64,000 nucleotides of DNA from Deltaproteobacteria bacterium (GTDB lineage Bacteria; Desulfobacterota; Desulfuromonadia; Geobacterales; Pseudopelobacteraceae). Under the pieces are notes generated by a model. It made no database searches, had not been told where the DNA came from, and worked only from the letters and a program-made list of their open reading frames with translations. The DNA is taken from the NCBI GenBank assembly GCA_019162745.1, contig JAFLLC010000029.1, positions 62,001-126,000 on the forward strand, in the 5' to 3' direction. Below, piece by piece: positions 45,349-62,401 of this stretch. The stretch's first letter is position 1, and every line of letters begins with the position of its first letter. Position numbers and translations under genes: made by a program.

Positions 45349-46878
45349 TTGGAAGATCAAATCTTAAGCACGGTAGATTGGGCCAGGGCGCAATTTGCGC
45401 TGACCGCCATGTATCACTGGATTTTTGTGCCGTTGACACTGGGGCTCTCCTTTCTTGTTGCCTTTTTCGAGTCGATCTACGTCAAAACAGGCAACGAAGA
45501 ATGGAAAAAACTGACCAAATTCTGGATGACGCTCTTCGGCGTCAATTTTGCCATCGGTGTTGCCACAGGCATCATTCTTGAGTTCCAGTTCGGCACCAAC
45601 TGGTCCAATTATTCCTGGATGGTGGGAGATATCTTCGGTGCGCCCTTAGCCATCGAGGGTATTTTTGCCTTCTTTCTCGAAGCCACTTTCTTTGCCGTGA
45701 TGTTTTTCGGCTGGCACCGGGTTTCCAAGGGTTTTCACCTGTTTTCCACCTGGATGGTGGCGGTTGGCTCCAGCCTCTCGGCGGTCTGGATTCTGGTCGC
45801 CAATGCCTGGATGCAGTTTCCGACAGGCATGGCCTTCAACCCTGATAGGGCCCGCTTTGAAATGCAAAGCTTCTGGGACGTTGCCCTCTCTCCTGTGGCT
45901 GTTCACAAGTTCACTCATACCACAAGCTCTGCTTTTCTGCTCGCTTCGCTCTTCGTTGTGGGCATTTCCTCTCTCTTTCTGCTGCAGAAACGCCATCAGA
46001 AAATGGCCAAGCGGAGCATGGTGGTTGCCGCCGTATTCGGATTCATCGCTTCGATCTTTTGCGCTTTTACCGGCGATGAGGCCGCCTTCAACGTAGCGCA
46101 CAAGCAGCCGATGAAACTGGCGGCCATAGAAGGGTTATACGTTGGGCAGGAAAAGGCGCCGATCATCGCTGCAGGTATCATCAACTCCAGCAAGAAACCG
46201 GGCGATGACCTCCCTGCATTTTATCAGGAGGTGAAAATCCCCGGTCTGCTTTCGCTCCTGGCAAACCGTGATGCTAACAGCTTTGTTCCCGGGATCAACG
46301 ATCTGGTCTTCGGTAATGCCGAGCGTAATATTGTCGGCGCCGAACAGCGCATGGTCACCGGCAAGATCGCCGTGGCAGAACTGACCAGATACAAGAACGC
46401 TAAAGAAAAAGGAGATGCGGCAGCTGCCGCCTCTGCGCTGGCCCTCTTTAACCAGAACAAGGGAGATCTTGGTTACGGTTATCTGAAAAGTCCGGCTCAG
46501 GCTGTACCACCGGTGGCCATAGCATTCTACAGTTTTCATATCATGGTGGTGCTGGGTACACTGTTCCCGCTGATTTTTCTGCTTGTACTCTATTTTGCCT
46601 TCAAAGGGACTCTCGAGAATCAGCGCTGGCTGAATCTGGCGTGCCTCCTTTCCATCTTTTTAGGCTATGTGGCGCAACAGGCCGGATGGGTCGTGGCCGA
46701 GGTGGGACGGCAGCCGTGGGCCATTCAGGGGCTGCTGCCGGTGAATGTGGCAAGCACAAACATTGCCACGGGCAACGTGCAGGCCACCTTTTTCATCTTC
46801 CTGGCCCTGTTTACCGCACTGCTGCTGGCTGAAATTCGTATTATGCTGAAGCAAATCAAGACCGGACCGGAGGCATAA
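45349..46878 (+). CDS. cydA: Cytochrome bd ubiquinol oxidase subunit I
   Basis: WARAQFALTAMYHWIFVPLTLGLSFLVAFFESIYV...GVATGIILEFQFGTNWSNYSWMVGDIFGAPLAIEGIFAFFLEATF. Confidence 0.97.
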   Translation: MEDQILSTVDWARAQFALTAMYHWIFVPLTLGLSFLVAFFESIYVKTGNEEWKKLTKFWMTLFGVNFAIGVATGIILEFQFGTNWSNYSWMVGDIFGAPLAIEGIFAFFLEATFFAVMFFGWHRVSKGFHLFSTWMVAVGSSLSAVWILVANAWMQFPTGMAFNPDRARFEMQSFWDVALSPVAVHKFTHTTSSAFLLASLFVVGISSLFLLQKRHQKMAKRSMVVAAVFGFIASIFCAFTGDEAAFNVAHKQPMKLAAIEGLYVGQEKAPIIAAGIINSSKKPGDDLPAFYQEVKIPGLLSLLANRDANSFVPGINDLVFGNAERNIVGAEQRMVTGKIAVAELTRYKNAKEKGDAAAAASALALFNQNKGDLGYGYLKSPAQAVPPVAIAFYSFHIMVVLGTLFPLIFLLVLYFAFKGTLENQRWLNLACLLSIFLGYVAQQAGWVVAEVGRQPWAIQGLLPVNVASTNIATGNVQATFFIFLALFTALLLAEIRIMLKQIKTGPEA

Positions 46879-46881
46879 AAA

Positions 46882-48018
46882 ATGATAGGAAACCTGGATC
46901 ATACAACCCTGCAGCAACTCTGGTGGCTGATCACTTCCGTAGTCGGGTCTCTCTTTCTCTTCCTGACCTTTGTTCAGGGTGGGCAGACACTGATTTTTAC
47001 TACGGCAACCACTGAAGAAGAAAAAACCCTGATTATCAATACTATGGGGCGTAAATGGGAACTGACCTTTACCACACTGGTCCTTTTCGGCGGCGCCCTG
47101 TTCGCAGCCTTCCCGCTCTTTTACGCCACCAGTTTCGGCGGCGCCTACTGGGTCTGGATGCTTATTCTCTTTACCTTTATCCTCCAGGCGGTCAGTTATG
47201 AATACCGCAAGAAACCGGACAACTTTCTCGGCGCACGGACCTATGAAATTTTCATGTTCATTAACGGCAGCGTGGGGATTCTCCTGATTGGTGCAGCTGT
47301 GGGTACCTTTTTTACCGGCTCCAGTTTCAGTCTGGATATGTTCAATTCTGTCAAATGGGGGACTTCGTACCACGGACTGGAAGCGGCGCTCAATCTGTTC
47401 AATCTTTCCTTCGGCCTGTTTCTGGTGTTTCTTGCCAGAACCCTGGGAGCCATGTACATCGTCAACCACGTTGACCATGACGCCTTGGTTTTACGGGCTC
47501 GCAAAGCGACCTGGATAAACCTTGTGCTGGCTCTCCCCTTTCTGTTGATCATCCTGTTCAGCCTTGTCACCATGGACGGTTTTTCAGTCGATCCTGTTAC
47601 AGGTAAAATCTTCATTGAGAAGGGTAAATACCTTCATAATCTGCTGGGGATGCCTGCTGTGCTGGTCATGCTGCTGGGTGGCCTGATTTCCGTGATCTAC
47701 GGTGTGCTTGCCACCGGATTTCTTGGTAAAAACAGCGGTATCTGGTTTGGCGGATTAGGCACCGTGCTGGTAGGTCTGGCGATATTCTCTCTGGCCGGCT
47801 ACAACAACACCGCCTTTTACCCATCGGTGACCGATCTGCAATCAAGCCTTACCATCTACAATGCCTCAAGCAGCAAGTATACCCTCACCGTCATGAGCTA
47901 TGTGGCCCTGGCCGTTCCTTTTGTTCTTGGCTATATTGCCTATGTCTGGAAGCTGATGGATGCGAAAAAACTGACCCTGGCCGAGTTGACGAGCGAAGAT
48001 GCCAATGAGATGTACTAA
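46882..48018 (+). CDS. cydB: Cytochrome bd ubiquinol oxidase subunit II
   Basis: LQQLWWLITSVVGSLFLFLTFVQGGQTLIF...RKWELTFTTLVLFGGALFAAFPLFYATSFGGAYWVWM. Confidence 0.95.
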   Translation: MIGNLDHTTLQQLWWLITSVVGSLFLFLTFVQGGQTLIFTTATTEEEKTLIINTMGRKWELTFTTLVLFGGALFAAFPLFYATSFGGAYWVWMLILFTFILQAVSYEYRKKPDNFLGARTYEIFMFINGSVGILLIGAAVGTFFTGSSFSLDMFNSVKWGTSYHGLEAALNLFNLSFGLFLVFLARTLGAMYIVNHVDHDALVLRARKATWINLVLALPFLLIILFSLVTMDGFSVDPVTGKIFIEKGKYLHNLLGMPAVLVMLLGGLISVIYGVLATGFLGKNSGIWFGGLGTVLVGLAIFSLAGYNNTAFYPSVTDLQSSLTIYNASSSKYTLTVMSYVALAVPFVLGYIAYVWKLMDAKKLTLAELTSEDANEMY

Positions 48019-55406: not shown

Positions 55407-55451
55407 TTTCATGGACCTTTAAGGTTTTTAAAACCTTAAAGGTCCATGAAA
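55407..55451. repeat. Perfect 22-bp-arm inverted repeat
   Basis: TTTCATGGACCTTTAAGGTTTT-T-AAAACCTTAAAGGTCCATGAAA. Confidence 0.95.
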
Positions 55452-55586: not shown

Positions 55587-55755
55587 TTTGCAATTATGCA
55601 AAAACAAAAAGTCTATTCGCAGATATGCAAAGCTGATGCTTTTCTGTGTAAACGCCTCTATTCACCTGTAAAAACAGCGTATATAAGCCTGATGGTCCAC
55701 CTCTAAGTGGTGTCTGGAGACGGGTGTAGATCCAAAAGATTTGCATGTCTGCAAA
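55587..55755. promoter_or_regulatory. Cluster of three TTYGCA-N4-TGCAAA palindromes (candidate enhancer/UAS)
   Basis: TTTGCAATTATGCAAA (55587-55602), TTCGCAGATATGCAAA (55616-55631), TTTGCATGTCTGCAAA (55740-55755). Confidence 0.75.
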
Positions 55756-55830: not shown

Positions 55831-55847
55831 TTGGCACAGCATGTGCT
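55831..55847 (+). promoter_or_regulatory. Sigma-54 promoter
   Basis: TTGGCACAGCATGTGCT: GG (55833-55834)-N10-GC (55845-55846), perfect TTGGCAC -24 element, 36 nt upstream of ATG 55882. Confidence 0.83.
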
Positions 55848-55881
55848 GTATACACTATGAAATATGTCAATTGAGGGAAAC

Positions 55882-56076
55882 ATGATATCTGAAACTATCT
55901 GCCCATTTTATGGAAAAAACGATGATCAATGTGATGTCGGATGCGGTTATATCTCCCCGCATGACGTGAATATGATCATCCGCTACTGTCATGGGCGTCA
56001 TATACACTGCATCAAATACCTCGAGCTGTCTGATCGCTTTCCTGTGGAAAGCCGGTGCAGCGAAGTAACATATTAA
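55882..56076 (+). CDS. Small cysteine-rich protein (6 Cys)
   Basis: MISETICPFYGKNDDQCDVGCGYISPHDVNMIIRYCHGRHIHCIKYLELSDRFPVESRCSEVTY; GAGGGAAAC RBS; the ORF-track start 55864 is less likely. Confidence 0.75.
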   Translation: MISETICPFYGKNDDQCDVGCGYISPHDVNMIIRYCHGRHIHCIKYLELSDRFPVESRCSEVTY

Positions 56077-56107: not shown

Positions 56108-56230
56108 ATGCTGTATCACTTCGCACTTAATTATAGTCACATAAATATTGCACCGGCCGTATTTATCAGCACACTTTTTGTTGTACTACTAATTGTCAAG
56201 GAGAGAAAAAATGAGCGAAAGAGAGCTTGA
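56108..56230 (+). CDS. 40-aa small membrane protein (unannotated sORF)
   Basis: MLYHFALNYSHINIAPAVFISTLFVVLLIVKERKNERKRA; GGGAG RBS; overlaps the next start by 20 nt. Confidence 0.6.
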   Translation: MLYHFALNYSHINIAPAVFISTLFVVLLIVKERKNERKRA

Positions 56231-56462
56231 ACTACTGAATAGAATAGAAGAACTGGAACGCCATACCTGGCGAAACAGTGCCATTCTTCGTTCGGTTGCC
56301 ATGGTAGCCTTCACAGCAATAATTGGATTTGTGATCGCTTCCGGTGTTGTGGGTGGTGGCCATGGCAGCCACTGGTCCGGCCCGGCCTGGAATACAATGT
56401 GGCTGTACGGCCTGTTTGCCGCTAACGCGGTGTCGATGTTTTGGACCACTCACAAGGAATAG
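56211..56462 (+). CDS. Small membrane protein with N-terminal coiled-coil
   Basis: MSERELELLNRIEELERHTWRNSAILRSVAMVAFTAIIGFVIASGVVGGGHGSHWSGPAWNTMWLYGLFAANAVSMFWTTHKE; AAGGAG RBS just upstream. Confidence 0.75.
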   Translation: MSERELELLNRIEELERHTWRNSAILRSVAMVAFTAIIGFVIASGVVGGGHGSHWSGPAWNTMWLYGLFAANAVSMFWTTHKE

Positions 56463-56475
56463 GGAGAATACGCTC

Positions 56476-57525
56476 ATGCCAATGAAAATTACTCATGCAA
56501 TTATGCTTCTGGCGGTCTGCGTTATCTGCGCAGCCTTTAATATGCAGCTCTTCGGTGGTCTGGACGAAATGATGGGTGACCAGTACTGGGTCATTGACAC
56601 GACACAGGGCGACCACGGTTGGTACGCCATGGGTCTCCTGCCGCACGTACAAAAAGTGCCTAAAGATGTAGTCAAGGCTGCTAATACCGACGTCGACCCG
56701 ACCAACAACTATGCAATATACTCACAGAGCGGCGACTTTGCCGGTAAGTCGGTCTACGGCATCTGCTTCGGTATTCCCTTGATCATGTACCTGATCTGGT
56801 TCGCTTTCATCATCGGCTTTCCGGACAGAGTTGATCCATACCTCCTGCCGCGCAAAATATTTACCATCGCAGTCATTATCTCCTGCTCAGTGATTGCCAA
56901 TCTGTTCCTTATGCGTATTGCCGGCGACTTTGCCCGCGACCCGATGGCCCGCATCGCCAATGTGGCGGGTAACCATGCTTCGCTCCTGTTTCATAACGCC
57001 GGTATCTGGTTCGCCATCCTTTTCTCGGCACTCGGCACCCACAGCCATTCATTTGATGAGGTTAAAGCGCCAGACAGCCGTAACTGGCAGACACAAGCAA
57101 ACGAAAAATTCAACTGGATGTTTACATTGCTGGGTGTCGTGACCGTACTTGAGGTCGTACTGGTTAAAAACAAGCTGGCTTTACCGGATGCGGCTGTGGA
57201 CTACTCAGTCTGGGTTATCTGGGTGGTTATTTTCATGCGTATGTACGGTTTCTCCCCCAAGTACTGGATCAAGCGCCCTACCGGCATCGCCATCATGGTC
57301 GTCGGCACGTTGCTGACGCTGCCAGTGTTCTATCTGCTTGAGAGGATGACAGGCACACTGGGAGCCGGCTTTGCCTCGCCGATTCTGGCCAAGGCGCTTG
57401 GTGCCGAAAACCAGAATGTTGGTCTTTCGCTGATGGTGTCGATCTACCTTGTGTTCTGGATGGAATTTGCAACCGCCATCCGTATGAACGGCCCGGATAA
57501 GAAATTTGCGGTTCAGAAATCTTAG
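56476..57525 (+). CDS. Multi-TM membrane protein of unknown function
   Basis: ~350 aa, ~8 hydrophobic segments, conserved-looking H/D/R residues; start MPMKITHAIMLLAV at 56476; RBS AGGGAG. Confidence 0.8.
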   Translation: MPMKITHAIMLLAVCVICAAFNMQLFGGLDEMMGDQYWVIDTTQGDHGWYAMGLLPHVQKVPKDVVKAANTDVDPTNNYAIYSQSGDFAGKSVYGICFGIPLIMYLIWFAFIIGFPDRVDPYLLPRKIFTIAVIISCSVIANLFLMRIAGDFARDPMARIANVAGNHASLLFHNAGIWFAILFSALGTHSHSFDEVKAPDSRNWQTQANEKFNWMFTLLGVVTVLEVVLVKNKLALPDAAVDYSVWVIWVVIFMRMYGFSPKYWIKRPTGIAIMVVGTLLTLPVFYLLERMTGTLGAGFASPILAKALGAENQNVGLSLMVSIYLVFWMEFATAIRMNGPDKKFAVQKS

Positions 57526-57601: not shown

Positions 57602-58963
57602 ATGACTGATATCAAGAATAAGGGTTGGACCGTAGTCTCTGCAGGTCTTGCCATCAATCTGGCGCTTGGTGTGCTTTATGCCTGGAGCGTGTTTAAAGGT
57701 GCCATCAAGGCATCAATAGAAAAGGGTGGTCCGGACGCGTTTCAGTGGGATATTGCTTCCATCAACGACCCTTATGCCGTCTGCTGCCTGGCCTTTGCCT
57801 TCTCAATGATTTTGGCCGGCAAGTGTCAGGACAAAATCGGCCCGGCCCGTACCGCACTTATCGGCGGTGTGCTGGTAGGGGCAGGTTTCATGCTGATGGC
57901 ATTTTCCAGCACCTATATGTCCTGGGTTCTCGGTTTTGGCATCCTTGCGGGTAGTGGCTTCGGTTTTGGTTACTCCGCCGCCACTCCGCCTGCACTGAAA
58001 TGGTTTTCACCCTCAAAGACCGGCCTTATCGCAGGAATTGTTGTGGGTGGCTTCGGAATAGCGCCGGTCTACATTGCACCGCTTGCATCCTATCTGATCG
58101 GCGCCTTTGGCATCCCAAAGGCCATGATGTTCCTTGGGATCGGATTCACGATAGTTGTCTGTAGCCTTTCTTTTGTTCTTGCCAACCCTCCGCAGGGTTT
58201 TGTGCCGGCGGAACCTGCTGATCCAGGCCCTCTGGCCAAGCTGAATGCTTCCAAGCCGGCCGTAAATGCTTCGGTCAGTGAAATGCTGCGTAACTACAAA
58301 TTTTATGTACTCTGGGTAACCTTTTTCATCGGTTCCGGGGCCGGATTAATGGTTATCGGCAGTGTTGCTGGCTTGGCCAAGAGCAGTATGGGGTCTATGG
58401 CCTTCGTCGCTGTTGCAATTATGGCCATCGGAAATGCCGCTGGCCGTGTTGTGGCTGGGGTGCTATCCGACAAGATCGGACGACGTGCCACTCTTTTCAT
58501 CATGCTGTCGTTGCAGGCTGTGATGATGTTCATTGCCATGATGGTTATCAACTCCGGTAGTGCAGTACTGCTGGTACTGCTGGCTTCTTTTATCGGCTTC
58601 AACTACGGATCCAATCTTTGTCTCTTCCCCTCCTTCGCCAAGGACTACTGGGGAACAAAAAACTATGGCCTTAATTACGGCGTCCTCTTTACCGCCTGGG
58701 GTGTCGGCGGTTCCGTTATGGGCAAGGTGTCCGAGATGATCAATGCCCAGCCTGGCGGTCTTGGCAAATCGTTCATGCTGTCCGGACTTCTGCTGGCGGG
58801 CGGAGCAGCAATGACCATTTTCCTCGCTGAACTCAAGCCTGTTGCCGCCAATGAAACAGAACCTTCCCAGTGGAAAGAATTCTGGGCTGAGTTTATGCTG
58901 GGTGCCAAAGTTTTCGTCGGATTCGAGCAGGCTCATATTCGTGTGCCACGCAAAATAATGTAA
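57602..58963 (+). CDS. MFS transporter, oxalate/formate antiporter (OFA) family-like
   Basis: GWTVVSAGLAINLALGVLYAWSVFKGAI...GSGFGFGYSAATPPALKWFSPSKTGLIAGIVVGGFGIAPVYIAPLASYLI. Confidence 0.92.
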   Translation: MTDIKNKGWTVVSAGLAINLALGVLYAWSVFKGAIKASIEKGGPDAFQWDIASINDPYAVCCLAFAFSMILAGKCQDKIGPARTALIGGVLVGAGFMLMAFSSTYMSWVLGFGILAGSGFGFGYSAATPPALKWFSPSKTGLIAGIVVGGFGIAPVYIAPLASYLIGAFGIPKAMMFLGIGFTIVVCSLSFVLANPPQGFVPAEPADPGPLAKLNASKPAVNASVSEMLRNYKFYVLWVTFFIGSGAGLMVIGSVAGLAKSSMGSMAFVAVAIMAIGNAAGRVVAGVLSDKIGRRATLFIMLSLQAVMMFIAMMVINSGSAVLLVLLASFIGFNYGSNLCLFPSFAKDYWGTKNYGLNYGVLFTAWGVGGSVMGKVSEMINAQPGGLGKSFMLSGLLLAGGAAMTIFLAELKPVAANETEPSQWKEFWAEFMLGAKVFVGFEQAHIRVPRKIM

Positions 58964-59053: not shown

Positions 59054-60445
59054 TCAGTAATTTTCTCTTTTGATGCCGTACCTCTTAATCTTTCGATACA
59101 TGGTTGCCATGTTCATACCGGCTTCACGCGCAGCCAGATCGATGTTGCCGCTGTGCCGTTTCAGAAGTCCTGTCAATAAATCTGCTTCAAAACGCTCCAA
59201 AGCCGTTGTAAAAGGCACGTCATCGTTCACCAGCTGCGCTTCGGATGAAACAGCACACCTGTCAGGGTCAGCCTCAATAAACTGAGCTAATGTGTCTTTG
59301 GATATATATTCTCCAGTTTCTATTGCCATACAGGCTTCAATGACATTTTTCAGCTGCCGGATATTCCCTGGCCACCCATACTCGCTCAAAATCTTCATGG
59401 CTTCGCTCTCAAATCCTTTGATCGCAGTTTTAAACTTCTGGTTCTGAAGGAGTATAAAGTGGGCAGCAAGAAGCGGGATATCGCTGCGGCGTTCCCGCAG
59501 GGGGGGGAGATGAATTGTCACAACATTCAGGCGATAGTAAAGGTCTTCACGGAAAACTCCTTGTTTTATAGCTTCTTTAATATCCGAGTTGGTAGCCGAG
59601 AGAATCCTTACATCCACACGTGTAGGGGTCGTATCTCCGAGACGGTTGAATTCCTTCTCCTGGAGAAAGCGGAGCAGCGTTTTCTGAACATTCATCGGCA
59701 GGTTGCCAACTTCATCCAGAAAAAGGGTGCCGCCATTGGCCGCCTCCAAAAGCCCGCAACGGTTCTCCGTTGCTCCGGTGAAGGCTCCTTTTTTATAGCC
59801 GAACAGTTCACTTTCCAACAGATTTTCCGGTAAAGCGCCGCAGTTGATGGCAACAAATCTTTTCTCATGACGTGGAGAGTTGTAATGGATCGCCTGTGCG
59901 ATCAACTCTTTACCGGTTCCGGATTCACCGGTAACAAGGATTGAGGTATCCCTGACGGCAATTTTGCCGACACGCTCCAAAACACTCTTCAACCCTTCGC
60001 AGGCTCCTATGATGTTTTCAAAACGAAACTTATTTTCAAGTTCTGCCCGCAGTTCGCGGTTTTCTTCGAGCAACTGTCGTTGCTGCAGGGCATTTTTTAC
60101 TCTGTAAACAAGCTCGTCAGGCTCGAACGGCTTGGTAAGCATGTCGTATGCACCCTTACGAAGTGCCTGGATTGACATCTCAACAGTTGCGTATGCGGTG
60201 ATCATGATGACCGGAATATCATGCTGTTTGGCTTTAATAGCCTGCAATACCTCAATTCCACTCATACCGGGCATTTTAATGTCGCTGATGACCAGATCCC
60301 ACGCGGCGGCCTTGAACTCTTCTACCGCTTGGCGGGGCGACGTGAAGGATTGCGTCAAATATCCGTGGTCGAGCAGAATCTGCTCCATCATACGGCAAAG
60401 TCCCGCTTCATTATCAATAAGTAGAATACGTTTTTTATCCCCCAT
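59054..60445 (-). CDS. NtrC-family sigma-54-dependent response regulator
   Basis: REC domain, GESGTGKELIAQAIHYNSPR, GAFTGATENRCGLLEAANGGTLFLDEVGNLP, C-terminal Fis-type HTH. Confidence 0.97.
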   Translation of the reverse strand: MGDKKRILLIDNEAGLCRMMEQILLDHGYLTQSFTSPRQAVEEFKAAAWDLVISDIKMPGMSGIEVLQAIKAKQHDIPVIMITAYATVEMSIQALRKGAYDMLTKPFEPDELVYRVKNALQQRQLLEENRELRAELENKFRFENIIGACEGLKSVLERVGKIAVRDTSILVTGESGTGKELIAQAIHYNSPRHEKRFVAINCGALPENLLESELFGYKKGAFTGATENRCGLLEAANGGTLFLDEVGNLPMNVQKTLLRFLQEKEFNRLGDTTPTRVDVRILSATNSDIKEAIKQGVFREDLYYRLNVVTIHLPPLRERRSDIPLLAAHFILLQNQKFKTAIKGFESEAMKILSEYGWPGNIRQLKNVIEACMAIETGEYISKDTLAQFIEADPDRCAVSSEAQLVNDDVPFTTALERFEADLLTGLLKRHSGNIDLAAREAGMNMATMYRKIKRYGIKRENY

Positions 60446-62401
60446 CTAAAGTTCCTCTCGCTCTGTTGGCAACGTGACGGTAACGCGTGTACCACTGCCG
60501 ACAGTGCTGTCGATATGGATCTCGCCATGGTGCTGTTCTATGATCTGCCGGGTGATTGCCAGGCCAAGTCCCGTACCGCTGGCTTTGGTCGTGTAGAATG
60601 GCTCGAAAATCTTTTCCAGACTTTCTGCCGGAATACCAGCGCCGCTGTCGCTGAATAGTATGTTTACATGCGTGGAATCAGCCGCTTCTGTGCTGACGGT
60701 GAGGTTTCCACCATCCGGCATGGCTCCTCCGGCGTTAAGGATCAGATTTATAGCGACCTGGCGCATCTGGTCACCATCCAGTTCCACCAGAGGCAGATCG
60801 TTTGCGAAGGAGGTGCTGACCGTTACTCCGCGCATATCGGTATGGTTGGCGGCAAAATCAACAATCTGCTGCAGAAGACTATTGAGATCTGTTGGTTCGA
60901 GAGTCGGGCGTGGCGTACGGGCGTAAGATAGCAGGTCCTGAACAATTTTTTTGCACCGCTTGCTTTCCCGCTTTATTTCGTGGATGTACTGATAGTTGGG
61001 GTTGTCTTCACCCATCTTGCTTTCAAGATAGCCTGCATATCCGAGTATAACCCCAAGCGGGTTGTTTATCTCATGGGCGACACCTGATGACAACACACCC
61101 AGCGATGCCATTTTGCACTGCTGGGCCAGATTCGATTCAAGGGCCTTGTTACGCTGAATAATATCGGTCATGCGATTAAAGGCACTTCCCATCTCGGCCA
61201 GTTCATCTTCACCGCTGACGGTGATCCGTTCGTCCAGATTGCCACGTTTAATACTTTTTATGACTGTCATCATGTGTGTGATCGGGCTGGTGATAATTCT
61301 TGAGACCTGGACAACAAGAGCCGTTGCTGCCGCACCTACCACAAGTATCAGAAGCGTCATGATAAGGAAAATATATGTTTTGATCTTGTTTGCTTCCTGA
61401 TAAAATTCATCCTCGTACGATCCGGCAGCAACAATCCAGTCCCATGGTTCAAAGTATTCATACCGTACAATTTTCATCCGGGCGGCTTTATCACCACTGT
61501 TTTTCCAGGGATAGCGAATCCAGCCGCTTTTATTAGTGCACATCTCCCTGATAAAGCTGTTTCCATCCAGATCCTTCTCGTTGATCCGGTTTTTCCCTTC
61601 GGAATCGGGGTGGATCGTAAAGGTGCCTTTGCTGTCCATACAAAATATATAGCCGGTCGTACCGACTTTTTTGGCTCGTATGCTCTCTTTAAGTTTAGCA
61701 AATGCCTGTCGCTCAAAGGCGGCATCTCCGATAGCTTCACTCGGATAACTGCCGGATGCAATTATCCAGTCCCATTCGCGGAAATATTTGTAGGCAACAA
61801 CTTTGGTGCGCGGTTTTTTATCCCCCAAGACCGCATTGCGCCAGGGATAGGTTATGAACAGTGTTTCGCCCGGTTTGCTGGCCCGGGCTGCCGCACACAT
61901 TTCACGAATGAAGTAGCGGCCGTTCTCATCTTGCTCGTTAAAAACATTTTCACCTTCACGAGCGATATGGGCCTGAAGAACACCACGGCTGGTCATGGCG
62001 TATATATAGCCGCTTTCGCCGACGTTTATTTTCCTCAACGCCAGTCGTGCTTCATTTTTGGCTGTTTTCAGATCAATTTTTTCCTGTGCATACAGGTGGT
62101 TCTCGGCGGCAACAAGGTTATAGGAAAGTGCGGTCAACGTCGCCAGTTCATTGTTGAGATTCTGAGCTTTGTCCTGTTTGTAGACCTGGAACTGCTGGTA
62201 GTGGGAATTGAGGAGGTCGATGCAGAATGCGGAAAGATGCTGAAGGTCGTCCTTGCTGGTTTTGGTTATGCCCAGATAGGCCTGCTGGTTGGCGATGAGG
62301 CCGATTACTCCGGCAACGACAAAAATTGGAATTATAACAAGCGGCAGGACCAGCGCCAGCAATTTACCGCGAAGTTTGAATTTATTGAGGAATGAATACA
62401 T
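60446..62401 (-). CDS. Sensor histidine kinase with tandem Cache-like sensor domains and HAMP
   Basis: Two related sensor repeats, HAMP, LGVLSSGVAHEINNPLGVILGYAGYLE (H-box), DSGAGIPAESLEKIFEPFYTTKASGTGLGLAI. Confidence 0.95.
   Translation of the reverse strand: MYSFLNKFKLRGKLLALVLPLVIIPIFVVAGVIGLIANQQAYLGITKTSKDDLQHLSAFCIDLLNSHYQQFQVYKQDKAQNLNNELATLTALSYNLVAAENHLYAQEKIDLKTAKNEARLALRKINVGESGYIYAMTSRGVLQAHIAREGENVFNEQDENGRYFIREMCAAARASKPGETLFITYPWRNAVLGDKKPRTKVVAYKYFREWDWIIASGSYPSEAIGDAAFERQAFAKLKESIRAKKVGTTGYIFCMDSKGTFTIHPDSEGKNRINEKDLDGNSFIREMCTNKSGWIRYPWKNSGDKAARMKIVRYEYFEPWDWIVAAGSYEDEFYQEANKIKTYIFLIMTLLILVVGAAATALVVQVSRIITSPITHMMTVIKSIKRGNLDERITVSGEDELAEMGSAFNRMTDIIQRNKALESNLAQQCKMASLGVLSSGVAHEINNPLGVILGYAGYLESKMGEDNPNYQYIHEIKRESKRCKKIVQDLLSYARTPRPTLEPTDLNSLLQQIVDFAANHTDMRGVTVSTSFANDLPLVELDGDQMRQVAINLILNAGGAMPDGGNLTVSTEAADSTHVNILFSDSGAGIPAESLEKIFEPFYTTKASGTGLGLAITRQIIEQHHGEIHIDSTVGSGTRVTVTLPTEREEL

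Follow-up and report, generated by a model that had tools for sequence, protein, structure and literature searches.

Three copies of a 16-bp palindrome lie in a single intergenic region of the window, the whole 64,000-nucleotide stretch of Geobacterales DNA examined in this paper. Sequence comparisons indicate that these copies very probably form the enhancer (UAS) of a sigma-54 promoter, and that the response regulator encoded at 59054-60445 would bind them and switch on a carboxylate-uptake operon. The copies, TTTGCA-ATTA-TGCAAA (site 1, 55587-55602), TTCGCA-GATA-TGCAAA (site 2, 55616-55631, 29 bp from site 1), and TTTGCA-TGTC-TGCAAA (site 3, 55740-55755, 124 bp from site 2), have no assigned strand, and their positions are kept in relatives. 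The original prediction had named three occurrences of TTYGCA-N4-TGCAAA in this region, and all of them were recovered as exact matches at the given positions. With the predicted transcription start near 55857, the site centres fall ~110, 234, and 263 nt upstream, in agreement with the distances proposed earlier and inside the range of ~80-300 bp expected for the repeated palindromic activator sites of a UAS. From site 3 to the promoter hexamer the distance is 92 bp.

The exact motif is confined to this array in its own genome. A scan of the whole 4.5-Mb genome (237 contigs) for exact TTYGCA-N4-TGCRAA, as had been suggested with the prediction, returned 3 matches, all of them here, compared with 1 for the reversed-pattern control; the motif is not scattered. 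When one mismatch was allowed, 41 matches were counted genome-wide versus 33 for the reversed control. Because these counts are close, the weaker matches elsewhere are background; the one-mismatch sites were dropped as extra targets, and no additional target is claimed in this genome, in which the only array-bearing target is the p64-p351-SfMCT operon. Elsewhere in the 64-kb window there is no one-mismatch relative of the palindrome, and the intergenic region on the kinase side contains no site at up to 1 mismatch, unlike that of many relatives. The base composition of the 504-bp intergenic region that carries the array predicts ~1.4e-4 matches by chance, and the Poisson probability of at least 3 is ~4e-13, a value that refers to a pattern picked after the sites had been seen.

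Downstream of the array, a candidate sigma-54 promoter, TGGCACAGCATGTGCT, is located at 55832-55847 on the forward strand, with the -24 GG at 55833-55834 and the -12 GC at 55845-55846. It has one mismatch to TGGCAC-N5-TTGCW, and its GG-N10-GC spacing is perfect and kept in relatives. Matches of this promoter class show no enrichment in the window, with 34 observed versus 38 expected, and the support for TGGCACAGCATGTGCT therefore rests on its conservation. Among 91 distinct upstream regions of the operon in Geobacterales, at least 1 site, defined as having at most one mismatch, was present in 84, at least 2 in 76, and 3 in 47. In an alignment of nine close relatives, invariant columns made up 27/36 of the site cores and 9/11 of the promoter, compared with 3/12 of the spacers and 22/286 of the other positions; the site logo is partly circular, as the search used the consensus, and this footprint alignment is not. 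Across Geobacterales, the array is conserved jointly with the -24/-12 promoter, in agreement with the sigma-54 enhancer reading. A few operon promoters have degenerate sites only (L231, L264, and L259). Those of L231 and L264, NTCGCA-N4-[TC]GCRAN, lie ~38 bp apart and ~200-250 bp upstream of p64 with the promoter intact, and are possibly co-evolved operators. In G266, one of the two degenerate-site genomes, the regulator match contains a stop codon.

The spacing of these elements also follows a pattern. The start of the last site precedes the promoter by 89-93, 100-103, or 109-116 bp in operon copies, while the usual interval between sites 1 and 2 is 29-33 bp, and sites 2 and 3 are separated by 123-126 or 133-139 bp. 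Spacing looks to tend toward whole helical turns: successive distance classes differ by roughly one turn (R 0.57 at 10.5 bp for site to promoter, with kinship included), and counting each distance once gives p ~0.04 and 0.07, a weak signal. In SatP operons the sites lie ~102, 204, and 225 bp before the promoters and are mutually in phase. This apparent helical phasing had been missed by the original prediction, as had the carboxylate-transport function of the target operon and the further regulon members in the order.

The proposed binder is encoded on the reverse strand at 59054-60445. It has the domain content of an NtrC/AtoC-type regulator, with a receiver (Response_reg), an AAA+ sigma-54 domain (Sigma54_activat) whose translation contains GAFTGA, and a Fis-type helix-turn-helix (HTH_8). 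An adjacent sensor histidine kinase gene (60446-62401, reverse strand; dCache_2 - HAMP - HisKA - HATPase) ends at 60446, and the regulator begins at 60445; both genes are convergent to the operon. The sequence relatives of the kinase sensor region are Cache-type chemoreceptor structures, and sensor domains of this type often bind C2-C4 carboxylates. In the proposed mechanism, the dCache kinase would supply the input, probably by sensing a periplasmic C2-C3 monocarboxylate, and phosphorylated dimers of the regulator would bind TTTGCA-N4-TGCAAA. The sites at ~-234 and ~-263, about three helical turns apart, and the site at ~-110 would occupy roughly one face of the DNA. The regulator would then oligomerise, loop the DNA, and remodel the sigma-54 RNA polymerase at 55832-55847, by which the p64-p40-p83-p351-SfMCT operon would be turned on. 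The same system would, in other Geobacterales, also control an acetate transporter of the SatP type, additional SfMCT transporters and, in many genomes, its own kinase gene.

The neighbouring regulator had been proposed as the natural candidate, and it is unlikely, given the distribution of the sites, that a true sigma-54 UAS is present here but is bound by a different enhancer-binding protein encoded in the genome. Such a binder would have many sources, as the genome encodes ~30 or more sigma-54 activators. Most of 58 related genomes encode an ortholog of the regulator, at identities of 69-95 percent. In 65 orthologs the recognition helix is nearly invariant, with the sequence N-M-[AV]-T-[MIV]-Y-R-K-x-K-[KR]-Y in nearly all, and this helix was not seen among 25 other sigma-54 activators of the window's own genome whose C-termini were read. 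The presence and absence of sites also track the regulator and kinase. By our tally of the first set, sites were found in 46/46 genomes with regulator or kinase and a testable p351 operon. In G037, G043, and G045 the p351 operon is present, and the regulator, kinase, sites, and sigma-54 promoter are all absent; their congener G040 has regulator and kinase, together with a site and a promoter. Fisher's exact test of site against regulator/kinase presence gives p ~5e-5, uncorrected for relatedness, and the three genomes of one genus may represent one loss event.

The position of the regulator gene bears on both readings. In several relatives it is apart from the operon (for example G014, G015, G016, G017, and G025), in a number of cases on a different contig, which would suit a different binder, and the array remains with the operon. 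In other lineages (L067, L068, L072-L075, and L077) the regulator gene is directly upstream of the array and points at it, and in many genomes sites precede the regulator's own kinase gene. The full regulator is missing from the assemblies of G022, G026, and G033, in which the kinase is present (partial in G022 and G026). In 31 further genomes, TTTGCAN4TGCAAA had 58 matches versus 0 for the reversed control; no exact match was found in the 3 of these 31 that lack both regulator and p351, nor in G257, G262, G272, and G276 despite regulator and p351, and these four may carry one-mismatch sites. One exception also favours a different binder: G019, an assembly 94 percent complete with 9 percent contamination, has two SatP arrays (L177 and contig C130), and its regulator, kinase, and p351 were not found. 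Overall, the co-absence of regulator, sites, and promoter, the persistence of the array when unlinked, and the distinctive recognition helix support the product of 59054-60445 as the very probable binder.

A second alternative treats the palindromes as boxes that act independently of sigma-54, either for a LysR-type protein, an option already raised with the original prediction, or for some other activator or repressor. A T-N11-A arrangement does fit inside the palindrome, but nearly all operon arrays precede a -24/-12 promoter, at clustered distances, no gene of the LysR type was seen next to the array within the window, and the operon copies of G037, G043, and G045 that are devoid of sites are devoid of the promoter too. 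A LysR-type binder is therefore very improbable, and LysR boxes were rejected. AT-rich DNA yields short palindromes by chance, but chance repeats or a mobile repeat family deserve almost no weight and were ruled out: here the exact matches are genome-unique, the cores are conserved while spacers and flanks have diverged, and the array recurs across families of the order.

The target of the UAS would be an operon of five genes on the forward strand. Its first gene, p64 (55882-56076; 64 aa), is an open reading frame conserved in the order; it was listed from an upstream start at 55864, and the ATG at 55882 is preceded by a GAGGG Shine-Dalgarno sequence. The product is a small Cys-rich protein, CPFYGKNDDQCDVGCGYISP. 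By BLAST, p64 is absent from 3 operon copies that are also without sites and promoter (L167, L168, and L172). The next two open reading frames are p40 (56108-56230; 40 aa), a small membrane-type protein 37-85 percent identical in relatives, and p83 (56211-56462, listed from an upstream start at 56193; 83 aa), with one hydrophobic stretch and ~87-100 percent identity in relatives. The fourth gene, p351 (56470-57525), encodes a multi-span membrane protein with conserved orthologs, present in 50/58 related genomes, with identities of 70-96 percent throughout the order; over 57 orthologs the column identity averages 85 percent. In a class-wide sample, all listed matches of p351 fell within the order of the window (107/277 genomes), and the named genomes bearing it include Geobacter, Geotalea, Geomonas, Citrifermentans, Trichlorobacter, and Pelotalea. 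No Pfam or NCBIfam family was found for p64, p40, p83, or p351, and when the Pfam threshold was relaxed, the matches of p64, p83, and p351 were all weak and chance-like. The AlphaFold2 model of p351 was poor (mean pLDDT 51.6, pTM 0.41).

The last gene (57602-58963) encodes an OFA-type MFS monocarboxylate transporter. Its product scored 404.8 bits against the SfMCT L-lactate transporter model (NCBIfam NF049980, cut-off 320 bits) and 167.8 bits against the L-lactate transporter structure PDB 6g9x, and is a predicted carboxylate transporter of the SfMCT L-lactate family. The conserved p64-p40-p83-p351 module is the least understood part of the system. It is a tentative suggestion, more doubtful than not, that this module and not the known transporter is the core target and could be a new small-carboxylate uptake or membrane-energy module. 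Behind this suggestion are its lack of any Pfam or NCBIfam family, its restriction to the order among the class members searched, and its nearly frozen sequence. If so, the order-wide dCache/sigma-54 switch could match expression of the module to substrate supply. An acyl-CoA synthetase gene lies on the upstream side of the array; the 22-bp perfect inverted repeat just behind it (1-nt loop; 55407-55451) is probably a terminator. Additionally, two open reading frames at 45349-48018 resemble the CydA and CydB subunits of cytochrome bd oxidase, by eye and with a CydB-like translation.

Further members of the regulon can be observed elsewhere in the order. In 18 genomes outside the family of the window, 77 exact sites were found, whereas the reversed control gave 8. 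Of the 77, 61 stand in front of one of four targets: the p64-p351 operon, a SatP gene (GPR1/FUN34/YaaH), a gene of the SfMCT type, or the kinase gene. Another 6 inspected sites precede none of these, and 10 were outside the inspected set. In many genomes, of Geomonas and others, a site is located 88-200 bp ahead of the kinase gene, a placement that suggests autoregulation there. In the close relatives G027 and G034 (L046:11600-13300), a satP operon that has a separate array of three sites is placed between the acyl-CoA synthetase gene and the p64-p351 operon, and the window is without this segment. Upstream of the Geomonas-type satP (L147:3335-3452 and L146:3163-3280), a 102-bp site pair is kept, with no strict -24/-12 match. 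A published result for Geobacter sulfurreducens was counted against the model: GSU2490, an oxalate-formate antiporter and a candidate ortholog of the MFS targets, is up on RpoN overexpression and has a predicted sigma-54 promoter, while primer extension located an RpoD-type start (PMC2725144).

The proposed system is a sigma-54 two-component regulon, a known kind, and no earlier description of its motif or of the regulon was found in the open-licence literature on Geobacter RpoN, acetate transport, SatP, AtoC, and LuxO. The sites of LuxO, likewise an NtrC-family regulator with sigma-54 target promoters, are TTGCA-N3-TGCAA upstream of the Vibrio qrr genes (PMC10328515), with half-sites TTGCA/TGCAA near-identical to those here. 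However, all three sites here have a spacer of 4 instead of 3 and an extra outer T/A, the target genes are unrelated, and LuxO serves quorum sensing as opposed to carboxylate uptake; the regulator also scores 359 bits against the LuxO equivalog cut-off of 800. Escherichia coli AtoSC (atoDAEB) is the best NCBIfam relative of both proteins, and short-chain acid metabolism is common to the two systems. The AtoC site, GCTATGCAGAAATTTGCACA, occurs as paired sites ~145-185 nt before the start (PMC3118216); this palindrome is unlike the site described here, where the sensor input is dCache_2 and the targets are transporters. Scores of 453 versus 714 bits for AtoC and 254 versus 646 bits for AtoS are far below the equivalog cut-offs. 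Enteric NtrC sites are TGCACC-N5-GGTGCA. Domain order, UAS-looping mode, and TGCA-type half-sites are shared with enteric NtrC, whereas site and targets differ, and the ntrC model score is 416 against a cut-off of 559. A study of Desulfovibrio vulgaris, using the same type of inference in another order, reported reconstructed sigma-54 regulons of mostly one to four operons each, and its main text spells out no TGCA-containing motif (PMC4641369).

On the sequence evidence given above, one of the numerous orphan sigma-54 activators in Geobacterales would gain an assigned operator, and the prediction is testable in cultured Geobacter and Geomonas. The operon copies also provide an evolutionary series for enhancer-promoter spacing that appears to change by helical turns. 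Small organic acids, acetate above all, are what Geobacterales live on, and the uptake of these acids is a control point for metal reduction and electricity production. What is gained is a concrete candidate regulator, a 16-bp operator, and a short list of putative targets, comprising an uncharacterised membrane module and transporters of the SatP and SfMCT types.
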